Shown here piece after piece: positions 987 to 25,344 of a stretch of 30,580 nt of DNA. The notes beneath the pieces are model-generated. The model did not search any database, had not been told where the DNA came from, and saw nothing but the letters and a program-made list of their open reading frames with translations. The number at the start of each line of letters is the position of its first letter. Position 1 is the stretch's first letter. The stretch is from a virus: the IMG/VR virus record IMGVR_UViG_3300048008_000233, positions 1-30,580 of that record, one strand, 5' to 3'. Position numbers and translations under genes: made by a program.

Positions 987-1052
987 GGTGTCGGTACACT
1001 ATGTCATGTCGAATCGTCATACCCTTTTTACCAAAATAATCTTTGATTTCCA

Positions 1053-1085
1053 GTAGCTTTCCCCAAAAACACGTAATTATAATAG
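1053..1085 (+). promoter_or_regulatory. Rightward promoter motif, copy 1 (orphan)
   Basis: GTAGCTTT at 1053-1060, a 17-bp spacer ending in CACGTAAT, then TATAAT at 1078-1083. It aligns without gaps to the motifs at 3135, 10190 and 25312. Unlike those, it has no rightward gene after it and points against the leftward genes, so it may drive a non-coding transcript starting near 1090. Confidence 0.5.
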
Positions 1086-1089
1086 TATT

Positions 1090-1180
1090 TATAAAAAACT
1101 CTAGTTATTAGTGTAACTTCATTAGTATAGTTCAATTATAGTACACTACTAATAGAGAGTGTCTTCACTCTACTATCTTA
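1090..1180 (+). ncRNA. Candidate structured small RNA
   Basis: Downstream of the orphan rightward promoter motif. TATTAGTGTA (1106-1115) can pair with TACAC...TAATA (1142-1154) around a 3-nt bulge. Alternatively ATTAGTA (1121-1127) can pair with TACTAAT (1147-1153). A hairpin AGAGTG-TCTT-CACTCT follows at 1156-1171. No convincing ORF is seen on either strand. No intrinsic terminator is visible, so the 3' end is a guess. The RNA itself is inferred from the motif and the pairing only. Confidence 0.25.
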
Positions 1181-1242
1181 AGTTTTAAACAACTATACTT
1201 TAGTTTATTACTTAAATTACTCTAATGGGATCTACTTCTTCG

Positions 1243-1470
1243 TTAAATTACATCGTATTCTTTAATATAGTAGTTAATTAGAGATTTTGCGGTGAACTTC
1301 TTATTCCACTGTGTGGTTTGCTCTATATACCCATCTTCCCATTCTTCTACATTTCCATCATTTACCCAATTTTCAAATACATCGACCATATAGTTGCGGT
1401 TTTCTTTAGTTAGATCTCCTACTTTATTATATAGGTAGTTAGAGTATTCTTCTTTAAGTTCTATATTCAT
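1243..1470 (-). CDS. Hypothetical acidic protein, 75 aa
   Basis: An acidic protein rich in Asn, Tyr, Glu and Trp, probably all-helical (for example residues 22-40, NRNYMVDVFENWVNDGNVE). No membrane segment or known motif. Small acidic early phage proteins often act on host enzymes or mimic DNA, but nothing here proves that. The start at 1470 has the local AACTATG leader, and a leftward promoter motif lies at 1503-1555 with its -10-like box ending 42 nt upstream. It appears to be a single-gene unit, because the next leftward gene starts beyond the gap at 1021-1242. Confidence 0.7.
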   Translation of the reverse strand: MNIELKEEYSNYLYNKVGDLTKENRNYMVDVFENWVNDGNVEEWEDGYIEQTTQWNKKFTAKSLINYYIKEYDVI

Positions 1471-2858: not shown

Positions 2859-2911
2859 ATTCAACTATATTATCTAGTAAGCAACGTGAACCGTCTGCAA
2901 TGCTATACGCG
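2859..2911 (-). promoter_or_regulatory. Leftward promoter motif, copy 5
   Basis: On the minus strand CGCGTATAGCATTGCAGACG, a 17-bp spacer, then GATAATATA and TTGAAT. It is gapless with the copies at 1503 and 2061 over 53 bp. It faces the gene starting at 2820 and marks the right limit of the leftward region. Confidence 0.65.
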
Positions 2912-3110
2912 CTACGCTGCGCTGCGCTGCTGCTAGCTGTCACGCCATGCTAGTGCCTAAGCAAAAGGCTAATGCCTGGGCCTAAACCCCGGGGAAAAGG
3001 CAAAACCTTTTTTCGAAAACCCAAAAAGGGATAGGGGCCCTTCGATATGAAATGCGTTTTCGTTTAGAAAATAGATTTTAGAATATACATGTAGCCCATA
3101 GCCCCTATTT
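2908..3110. other. GC-rich divergent intergenic region with nested inverted repeats
   Basis: No credible ORF lies between 2821 and 3193. The block starts with GCTGC-type repeats (2908-2938). It then holds a symmetric structure GCCT-AAA-CCCC-GGGG-AAA-AGGC (2980-3001), the palindrome TTTTCGAAAA, CCC-AAAAA-GGG (3020-3030), and a long-range pair ATAGGGGC (3031-3038) with GCCCCTAT (3101-3108). Such a region between divergent modules could be a replication origin or packaging-recognition site; this is inference. Confidence 0.4.
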
Positions 3111-3134
3111 ATGCAACAAACTTTTTTTCGGGTT

Positions 3135-3169
3135 GTAGCTTTTCTAAAAAACGCGTAATGATATATAAT
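3135..3169 (+). promoter_or_regulatory. Rightward promoter motif, copy 2
   Basis: GTAGCTTT at 3135-3142, a 17-bp spacer ending in ACGCGTAAT, then GATATATAAT. It aligns without gaps to the copies at 1053, 10190 and 25312. It lies 25 bp upstream of the first rightward gene (ATG 3194) and is therefore the likely promoter of the fibre gene block. Confidence 0.65.
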
Positions 3170-3193
3170 TAAATAACGTATAAATTAGGTTTA

Positions 3194-3493
3194 ATGGCAT
3201 CTAAACAAAAATTGAGCCCTAAAGCTGCTGCTGCAAAGAAGAAGCGTGATTTGGCTTATGCTAAGACGTCAGACCGTAAAAGAAAAAAAGCACATGCTCA
3301 GAGAGAAAGACGTAAAGCTAAAAAAAGTGGGCGTAATGTTAAGGGTATGGATTGGGATCATAAAGATGGTCGTTGGGAAAAGATTTCCCGCAATAGAGCT
3401 AATGATGGAGAAGGAACAAAGAAAGAAGGCAAAAAGAAATATAAGGTACCTAAGCGCAAGCGAAGAGCTAAAACTAAAAAGAAAAAGAAATGA
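3194..3493 (+). CDS. Small highly basic protein, 99 aa
   Basis: A Lys/Arg/Ala-rich protein with no membrane segment. Three zones are visible: a basic N-terminal half (SPKAAAAKKKRD...), a short conserved-looking core KGMDWDHKDGRW near residues 50-61, and a C-terminal Lys/Arg tail. The 'DHKDG' core resembles a signature seen in small basic proteins of many marine phages; their function is not established. Nucleic-acid binding, perhaps inside the virion, is a reasonable inference. It is the first gene after a rightward promoter motif, and its stop overlaps the next start (ATGA at 3490-3493), implying coupled translation. The ORF at 3246-3497 is a frame shadow. Confidence 0.75.
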   Translation: MASKQKLSPKAAAAKKKRDLAYAKTSDRKRKKAHAQRERRKAKKSGRNVKGMDWDHKDGRWEKISRNRANDGEGTKKEGKKKYKVPKRKRRAKTKKKKK

Positions 3494-9842: not shown

Positions 9843-10193
9843 ATGATTACTTACGAATGGAATTGCAAAACAGTTGACTGCTATGTTGAAACAGAGGGAG
9901 AATCTGATGTAGTGTATAATGTGCATTGGATTGTTACTGGAGTTTCAGATACATTAAACCCACAAGGGGATCCTTACACGTCAACTAGCATTGGAACACA
10001 AGAATTAAAAATTGATGATATTACAAACTTTATACCTTTTGATCAACTTACAAACGATGAGGTAGCAGCGTGGACTAAAAGCACAATGGGAGATGAACAA
10101 GTAACATATATTGAAGCAGATATCGCGTCAGCTATTGAGTTACTTATAAACCCAGTTTCTGTTACTTTACAAGTTGGGGCCGATAATCTGTAG
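9843..10193 (+). CDS. Conserved virion-associated protein, DUF7936-like, 116 aa
   Basis: The N-terminal half is beta-rich (YEWNCKTVDCYVETEGESDV, then VYNVHWIVTGVSD). It is followed by FIPFDQLTNDEVAAW and an amphipathic helix to the end. The order 'short strands, FIPF-x-x-L-T-x-E/D-x-x-x-x-W' is familiar from small proteins encoded near tail genes in cyanophages and other marine phages (DUF7936 type); their exact role is unknown. It is the last gene of the fibre block. Its 3' end nearly abuts the promoter motif at 10190 in front of groEL. Confidence 0.55.
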   Translation: MITYEWNCKTVDCYVETEGESDVVYNVHWIVTGVSDTLNPQGDPYTSTSIGTQELKIDDITNFIPFDQLTNDEVAAWTKSTMGDEQVTYIEADIASAIELLINPVSVTLQVGADNL

Positions 10194-10222
10194 CTTTATA
10201 AAATTACGCGTAATTATATAAT
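10190..10222 (+). promoter_or_regulatory. Rightward promoter motif, copy 3 (groEL)
   Basis: GTAGCTTT at 10190-10197 overlaps the TAG stop of the upstream gene. A 17-bp spacer ending in ACGCGTAAT follows, then TATATAAT. It shares all invariant positions with the copies at 1053, 3135 and 25312. The -10-like box ends only 15 nt before the groEL ATG, so the leader would be very short. Confidence 0.65.
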
Positions 10223-10235
10223 AAAATCTAATTTA

Positions 10236-11771
10236 ATGAATCAAATAGTAAAAGAATTTCACTTCGGAACTGAGGGGAAAGAAAAACTGTTTAAAGGTAT
10301 TGACACTTTAGCAGGAGCCGTAGCTTCTACATTAGGGGCAGGCGGAGAAACGGTAATTTTTGAAGATAATGCGGGGGTGCCTGTAATAACAAAAGATGGT
10401 GTAACAGTTGCTAACTTGTGTATCATGGAAGATCCTGTAGAGAATATGGGTGCATCTATGGTTAAGCAAGCAGCACAAAGAACAGTGCAAGATGCAGGAG
10501 ATGGGACAACTACCGCTACGGTATTAACACATTCTTTATTGCATGCTTTAGTTGACAACAAAGATATAAACAAAAGAGAAGTAGCAGAAGCTATAAATAC
10601 AGTAGTAGGCAAAGTTACTACGTATTTAGATAAGGTAAGTAAAGTGGTTGACGATTCAATGATTGAAGAAGTGGCCACTATATCTACTAATAATGACGTT
10701 GAGCTAGGCAAGTTGATTGCTGACGCTTATAGAGCAGTGGATTTAACCGGTATAGTTATGATGGAAACATCAAAGACTGGTGAAACAGGTTTAGAGGTTG
10801 TTGAGGGAGTTCAGTATGACAAAGGATTTATCAATAACCATTTTGTAAACAATCAAACAAATAATTCTTGCGAACAAGAAAACCCTTTAATACTTCTGAT
10901 CGATTCTCAAGTAGATACAGTAAGACAAATACAAACTGTACTCGAGCACGTTATAAAAAACAAAAGATCATTCCTAATCATAGGGGACGTCGACCCGAAA
11001 GTGGCAGCGACTTTAGCTATGAACAAGAATAAAGGTAATATTGATATTAACATCGTTCCAGCACCTACACATGGTGTAAATAGAAAAGAGATGTTTGACG
11101 ATTTAGCATTATTAACAGGTGCAACAGTTATAAGTGAAAACTTAGGAGACGATTTAGATTTAATTGATCTTGATCATTTAGGTACTTGCACAAAAGCTAC
11201 TTCGACATTTGCGGATACAGTTATACAAATTAATAACGATGCTGCTGAACGAGTTACAAAAATCGTAACAAACTTAAAAGAAAAGCTAAGTAACGAAACA
11301 AATCCTAACAGAGTAGTTAAGATTGAAAAGAGATTAGCTATGTTATCCGCTAAGGTTGCAATAGTGCAAGTTGGTGGTAATTCAGATATAGAATTAAAAG
11401 AAAAGAGAGATCGTGTAGAAGATGCAATATGTGCAACTAAAGCAGCGATTAAAGAAGGTGTTGTTGCAGGCGGAGGTGTTGCATTAGCTCAAGCTACTGT
11501 AAAGATTAAAACTAAGACACAAGCCGAAAAAATTGTTATGGAAGCGCTTATTGCTCCTTACAGAATTATATTACAGAATGCAGGACTATTAGTTGATATT
11601 GTAGATCGTAAAGATTGGGGTATTGACGCAAGAACAGGCAAAGCAGTAAATATGTTTAAAGCTGGTATTATAGATCCAGTGCTTGTTACAAAGTCAGCAT
11701 TAAGGAATGCAGCGTCAGTAGCTTCAACTATATTGTCTACTAACTGCATAATGTCTAATCTAAGAGCGTAA
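10236..11771 (+). CDS. groEL: Phage chaperonin GroEL (Cpn60), 511 aa
   Basis: A full-length group I chaperonin: a ring-forming ATPase that folds proteins in a closed cavity with GroES. The nucleotide-site motifs are intact: TKDGVTVA with Asp54, GDGTTTATVL (88-97), VED with Asp396 (equivalent to E. coli D52, D87 and D398), AGGGVAL (411-417), and the C-terminal GIDARTGK and AGIIDPVLVTKSALRNAASV. It lacks the GGM-rich tail and is about 37 residues shorter than E. coli GroEL. In the apical domain, by-eye alignment shows changes at substrate/GroES-binding positions: L234 to Gln233, L259 to Ala257, V263 to Ala261 and Y203 to His202, while F204 and L237 are kept. It is followed one base later by groES and preceded by its own promoter motif. 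It probably serves phage capsid or tail protein folding. Confidence 0.95.
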   Translation: MNQIVKEFHFGTEGKEKLFKGIDTLAGAVASTLGAGGETVIFEDNAGVPVITKDGVTVANLCIMEDPVENMGASMVKQAAQRTVQDAGDGTTTATVLTHSLLHALVDNKDINKREVAEAINTVVGKVTTYLDKVSKVVDDSMIEEVATISTNNDVELGKLIADAYRAVDLTGIVMMETSKTGETGLEVVEGVQYDKGFINNHFVNNQTNNSCEQENPLILLIDSQVDTVRQIQTVLEHVIKNKRSFLIIGDVDPKVAATLAMNKNKGNIDINIVPAPTHGVNRKEMFDDLALLTGATVISENLGDDLDLIDLDHLGTCTKATSTFADTVIQINNDAAERVTKIVTNLKEKLSNETNPNRVVKIEKRLAMLSAKVAIVQVGGNSDIELKEKRDRVEDAICATKAAIKEGVVAGGGVALAQATVKIKTKTQAEKIVMEALIAPYRIILQNAGLLVDIVDRKDWGIDARTGKAVNMFKAGIIDPVLVTKSALRNAASVASTILSTNCIMSNLRA

Positions 11772-25311: not shown

Positions 25312-25344
25312 GTAGTTTTTTATAAAACTATGTAATTATAATAA
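25312..25344 (+). promoter_or_regulatory. Rightward promoter motif, copy 4
   Basis: GTAGTTTT at 25312-25319, a 17-bp spacer ending in ATGTAAT, then TATAAT at 25337-25342. It aligns without gaps to the copies at 1053, 3135 and 10190, and box spacing is identical. It precedes a strong hairpin and the connector gene at 25406. Confidence 0.6.

Follow-up and report, generated by a model that had tools for sequence, protein, structure and literature searches.

The window analysed here is an entire virus record of 30,580 bases from an uncultured phage. Judged by its predicted proteins, this is a tailed phage related to flavobacterial podoviruses and carrying a crAss-type muzzle. Its TerL is 63% identical to that of MW202828, 44% to those of Flavobacterium phages of the elemo group (Elemovirus), 36-38% to those of Cellulophaga phages (among the matches listed) and 31% to that of Tenacibaculum phage Gundel_1, and the crAss muzzle profile is matched (30.9 bits against a cut-off of 27, E 1e-7) by the start of the final ORF, which is truncated. 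The ORF list holds no ORF of at least 60 aa between positions 2821 and 3193. To the left of this gap, five of the six ORFs of at least 60 aa run leftward, the nearest at 2638-2820, and the remaining one, of 65 aa, runs rightward from a TTG codon; to the right, large ORFs run rightward from 3194. The rightward block opens with a basic protein of 99 aa, followed by tail-fibre-like genes, groEL, holin, terminase and portal. The absence of genes and the position between leftward and rightward genes were both part of the original prediction for this stretch, and both hold. A search of phages with the 99-aa protein returned no relative, and blastn of the junction region against phages gave no useful match. 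The features discussed below are collected in Table 1.

Table 1. Features of the divergent junction and related sites, in window coordinates
Feature	Position	Strand	Basis or remark
Leftward promoter-like motif, GTATAGCA-TTGCAGACGG-N-ACG-N-TAGATAATATA	2861..2908	-	Faces small leftward ORFs; putative function
GC-rich, poorly conserved stretch	2909..2996	.	Holds part of the predicted palindromes; GCCT..CCCCGGGG.. begins at 2980
Palindrome GCCTAAACCCCGGGGAAAAGGC	2980-3001		Motif confirmed in window
Palindrome TTTTCGAAAA	3010-3019		Motif confirmed in window
Palindrome CCCAAAAAGGG	3020-3030		Motif confirmed in window
Long-range pair, ATAGGGGC with GCCCCTAT	3031-3038 with 3101-3108		Motif confirmed in window
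Conserved noncoding element, ~131 bp	2997..3127	+	Profile matches in relatives; core of the finding
Block A, G-box and dyad, AAATGCGTTT	3031..3059	+	GGGG 3034-3037, dyad 3050-3059
Block B, TAGCCC..TAGCCCCTATTTATGCAACAAA, then T-tract	3092..3128	+	Alignments
Rightward promoter-like motif, GTAGCTTTT..AAAA..CGCGTAATGATATATA	3134..3180	+	Recurrence; putative promoter
Rightward motif, second copy	10188..10220	+	E 0.0046; immediately upstream of groEL
Rightward motif, third copy	1053-1081 (within 1048..1240)	+	E 0.012; inside leftward module
Rightward motif, weak copy	25312-25340		E 1.2
First gene of rightward block, 99-aa Lys/Arg-rich protein	3194..3493	+	PHROG 6437 (unknown function)
groEL	10236-11771	+	Rightward block

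The palindromes that had drawn attention to this site are all present. The GC-rich block said to contain them, at 2908-3110, is real but shifted: it occupies 2881-3045, where GC reaches 54.5% compared with a window mean of 36.6% (the top 0.007% of 165-nt windows), and the remainder of the gap, 3046-3193, is AT-rich at 27.7% GC. Three palindromes of at least 8 bp are found in the stretch against 0.85 on average, and hairpins with 5-bp arms are modestly enriched (six against a mean of 2.2), a count that 7.2% of 203-nt windows reach. As structure, however, the supposed dense stem-loops do not exceed chance, the single-strand fold of the stretch giving z -0.84 as DNA and -1.08 as RNA against dinucleotide shuffles (34 and 30 of 200 shuffles, respectively, fold as well). 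Nor did the structures reappear when they were sought in relatives. None of the four is kept whole in 16 close relatives, with the exception of the 3-bp CCC/GGG stem, which is whole in one of them, L003. This relative, the 99-aa protein of which is 97% identical, also keeps seven of the eight pairs of the long-range helix; its sequence differs over the CCCCGGGG palindrome and over most of the poorly conserved stretch in Table 1.

The conserved part of the junction is a noncoding element that the original prediction had not singled out. When the element as it stands in the window was run by BLAST against 11 records, only the window itself gave a reliable match, and a profile was therefore used, derived from an alignment (A1) of 17 close sequences, namely the window and 16 of the 22 close loci L003-L024. 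Left out of A1 were L008 and L018, which have almost no upstream sequence, and L013, L017, L021 and L024, the junction sequences of which are the same as in loci used. Columns 61-228 of A1 are gap-free. The first round of searching gave 42 records at E<=0.01, and after iteration the element was found at the same threshold in 61 of the 72 loci carrying the 99-aa gene, plus the window, the later-round E-values being not independent of the profile. Among the 11 loci missed, four lie on contigs with at most 16 nt ahead of the gene, two have weak matches (E 0.03 and 0.18) at the contig's first bases, and two have weak internal matches, L050 (0.042) and L074 (0.054), the former matching at E 1.1e-5 when the whole record is searched with R1, a sequence-only model. 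L059, L063 and L067 gave no profile match to the element better than E 1. A further alignment, A3, comprises 32 of the 62 profile matches, hand-picked for coverage and spread.

The same element is reached from the opposite flank. The leftward 105-aa early gene retrieved 22 loci, 20 of which carry the element, always on the strand opposite the gene and 115-1647 nt away; in the nine other close loci the distance is 716-1647 nt. The two remaining contigs extend 681 and 626 nt past the gene and end before the element is reached. Fourteen of the 20 element-bearing loci are on contigs outside the 99-aa-gene retrieval. A pattern scan gave six stretches, three more contigs with the element among them; a stricter regular expression for the element matched none of 50 loci, and another pattern scan gave zero. 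Each of 22 family records (the window and 21 contigs searched whole) has one strong R1 match (E 1.1e-5 or better), and the other R1 matches in the family fall on the additional block B copies of L025 and L026 or, in nine cases, off the element at E 0.0056-0.18. Thirty-nine loci have over 1 kb of sequence upstream of the element; in every one, ORF coverage there is greater on the minus than on the plus strand, and the first rightward ORF of at least 50 aa starts 28-281 nt past the element. Downstream, a mechanical count gave plus over minus in 58 of 63 loci, the exceptions being L007, L014, L022, L065 and L071. Across relatives, then, the element lies between divergent modules and can be found starting from either flanking gene. 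Conservation, noncoding character, one strong copy per record and retrieval from both sides together support a functional cis-acting site at the junction. To this extent the prediction of a functional site is supported, though not with the stem-loops as its working part, and the locus illustrates that conspicuous palindromes can adjoin a truly conserved signal without belonging to it.

In the alignments the element is composed, in order, of an A/C-rich lead, GGGGnnTGGG, an AAA-N4-TTT dyad, a spacer, a CCC...TATnTnTAACAA box and a T-tract. The second G-box is TGGG in relatives and degenerate in the window. The spacer is about 30 nt long, free in sequence and almost fixed in length, and the C-box that follows it has the consensus (A/G)CCCn(A/T)TACCTCTATATATGTAACAAA ahead of the T-tract. 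Block B stands two or three times in tandem in L025 (4619-4821) and L026 (4081-4253), and the other family records searched have it once each. The TAnnTTTG consensus is that of a host-type promoter; block B was considered as such and rejected, six of the 32 A3 sequences fitting by eye. Among the matches listed in the literature, titles and abstract openings do not name these boxes (G-box, AAA-N4-TTT, CCC..TAACAA).

The element is neither folded nor translated in any way that its sequence betrays. Mean fold z across 51 sequences is -0.09 for the core and 0.40 for the extended region on the plus strand, and 0.39 for each on the minus strand. No compensatory pairs occur in the close alignment, where the long-range helix between G-tract and C-tract has six pairs with zero compensatory changes, and no helix emerged when 57 sequences (effective number 38.9) were scanned for covariation. 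Only two of the 40 top pairs in that scan, 3-94 and 3-100, have a standard-pair fraction above 0.7; they share column 3, are present in part of the sequences and stand outside any helix. No Rfam family matches the window at gathering score. The stretch therefore lacks what marks a structured noncoding RNA, namely folding better than shuffles, compensatory changes and a described family, and the element presumably works in double-stranded form, or in any case not through a fold. A 20-aa frame at 2972-3034 (MPGPKPRGKGK...), peptide-like at first sight, was rejected as coding, with no frame stop-free in all 17 close sequences; all six frames contain stops across this set, single sequences being open in one frame or another. 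Phage N4 is the model for a virion RNA polymerase with hairpin promoters. A system of this kind was also considered and set aside, the giant protein of MW202828 having no Pfam match and the N-terminal part in the window matching the crAss muzzle.

Directly 3' of the element is the rightward promoter-like motif, which can also be written GTAGCTTTT..AAAA..CGCGTAATnATATA. Other genes of this phage are preceded by it as well (Table 1), and in relatives it is positioned before groEL or in the early module. The leftward motif, in the form TTGCAGACGG..ACG..TAGATAATATA, recurs by eye in the early module near 2060-2113 and 1500-1565, and 2084-2113 matches 2882-2911 at 90%. From their recurrence and placement, the rightward and leftward motifs are probably promoters. 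The element was sought at the other copies of the rightward motif, before groEL and in the early module, and was not found there, so the motif does not need the element.

Further noncoding features were observed. About 170 nt of conserved noncoding sequence follows the motif copy at 1053-1081, inside the early module, and is a candidate small RNA; motif copy and sequence together lie at 1048-1260 (+) in the window, L003 2096-2310, L019 2712-2925, L014 3247-3460, L006 100-310, L011 2093-2305, L010 2105-2315 and L004 2741-2952; RNAalifold on eight sequences gave 28 pairs, seven with compensatory changes, and a covariation term of -0.44. In distant loci an oriented inverted repeat with an AT-rich centre, GTGACnnTAG-N24-CTAnnGTCAC (block C), is positioned between the element and the start codon, for example in L026 (4324, 2264, 2399), L034 (4887, 2304, 2439) and L041 (4912, 3659); at least 16 loci have a further plus-strand copy within the early module (second match E<0.01). 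In the more distant relatives, block C was seen in 37 by regular expression and in 44 loci at E<=5. The regular expression found none in the 20 close loci and the window, and block C was left out of the element core. Downstream of the early block C copies, L026, L060, L034, L039 and L033 have in common a noncoding stretch resembling TGTAGGACGGAGTCTACTCTTCCGAC, noted by eye and slightly variable; it is possibly a small RNA or terminator.

We favour, at a probability of about one half, a reading of the stretch as a control hub between a leftward early-type module and the rightward structural operon, in which a putative protein-binding site starts the virion-gene operon. A phage-encoded DNA-binding protein, or two, would recognise the G-box and the AAA-N4-TTT dyad and also the CCC...TATnTnTAACAA box about 60 bp (six helical turns) beyond, with the almost fixed spacer keeping the two sites in phase. 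The bound complex would then activate the promoter-like motif at 3134-3180 and so start the operon. What was observed directly is that the element is conserved, almost fixed in its spacing, placed at the junction, free of folding and present in one strong copy in each record, and that the promoter-like motif recurs; from these facts we infer protein binding, activation, timing and the identity of the motif as a promoter. In its favour, the promoter-like motif that the element immediately precedes is also seen ahead of groEL and at other sites, and block B is repeated in tandem in L025 and L026, as binding sites are. It is weakened by the other copies of the promoter-like motif, which do without the element, by the single copy per genome, which fits an origin or a packaging site equally well, by the degenerate second G-box of the window, and by the five of 63 loci in which downstream coverage is not plus-dominated.

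A replication origin, at which a phage initiator would bind the element and open the AT-rich spacer or the T-tract, is possible but rather unlikely. One strong copy in each record searched is what such a site would show, the tandem block B of L025 and L026 is iteron-like, and relatives have genes for DnaA_C-type HTH proteins and for a primase-type protein (in MW202828, two DnaA_C HTH proteins and a BT4734-like_N/PriCT_1 protein). The predicted change in GC skew was also seen, with a switch of sign at the junction in the window and a cumulative-skew minimum near the junction in MW202828. However, both skew features are confounded by the switch of coding strand with which they coincide, the cumulative skew of MW202828 is almost flat on one arm, beyond the junction, and block B is not repeated in the other family records searched.

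The evidence of a single conserved junction site is shared with a further alternative, which we regard as unlikely: block A would be the recognition signal of the terminase, and a cut close by would place direct terminal repeats at the divergent junction. Gundel_1 has its sole R1 match (E 0.005) inside a 322-bp DTR at a divergent gene junction, and many contigs end shortly before the 99-aa gene (26 of 72 within 1 kb upstream, compared with 0 of 72 within 1 kb downstream). The Gundel_1 match is weak, though, and covers block A only, and the background is equally strong: an off-element match in family record G005 has E 0.0056, others are at 0.015-0.023, and three other named phages give 0.03-0.09. 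The contig ends, which are only a proxy for virion ends, define no fixed point; read as a terminus they were suggestive at first, but they are scattered over several hundred bases and continue into the early module. Among the 22 early-gene loci, seven stop no more than 1.1 kb past the gene, on the side away from the element, and two stop between the gene and the element, and of four long contigs examined at their far ends, three end about 4, 1.2-1.3 and 8-10 kb upstream of the element. The fourth (L101 and L102, at its two ends) has the early region twice, as two variants that share 88-98% aa identity across three ORFs. Such variation suggests hypervariability of the early module between strains, the simplest explanation of the contig breaks. 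No exact end repeat was present in the three contigs tested. A structured RNA or DNA hairpin element with the stem-loops as its working part is very improbable and largely refuted, the palindromes of the window and the modest excess of short hairpins being outweighed by the chance-level folding, the want of compensatory pairs, covarying helix and Rfam match, and the loss of the palindromes in the 16 relatives.

Taken as a control junction, the site may be compared with those of known phages. R1 reached E<=0.01 in two of nine named phages, MW202828 (0.006) and Gundel_1; four others gave 0.03, 0.05, 0.09 and 1.1, and three had no match. These E-values are rough, and the off-element match in G005 indicates that chance reaches such a level. 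MW202828 (Podoviridae sp. ctfjg026, circular, 60,850 bp) is the closest named relative, and its match, at 42838-42937, is positioned about 1 kb inside the rightward side of a divergent junction, upstream of groEL. Unlike the element of the window, the match is weak (0.07-0.19 by nhmmer) and shares bases with the end of a small CDS in the annotation, and a relative of the 99-aa gene was sought in this phage and not found. In Gundel_1 (Pachyviridae, NC_062747), for which PhageTerm predicts short direct terminal repeats (PMC8776804), the likeness is a block A-like GGGGGGTG..TAAATGAAAA at 22-71, with a second copy at 78534-78582, on the minus strand. Here the C-tract is about 17 nt closer by eye, and other genes lie on both flanks. 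Because of its place inside the 322-bp terminus, we treat this match as a lead and not as proof. That block A is a terminase cleavage or recognition signal common to this uncultured phage group and Pachyviridae is quite improbable on present matches; if it were so, a junction of about 130 bp would join the packaging terminus to structural-operon control, and genome ends would be readable from sequence alone in this crAss-related flavophage clade. The finding itself provides a searchable signature by which the control junction can be recognised in a phage group that is largely uncultured, together with a recurrent promoter-like motif. Divergent early/late control regions of tailed phages consist of a gene-free junction of opposite operons, with promoter-like motifs facing both ways and conserved sites between them. 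The window has this layout in common with them, and its specific boxes lie in a stretch that has no Rfam match.
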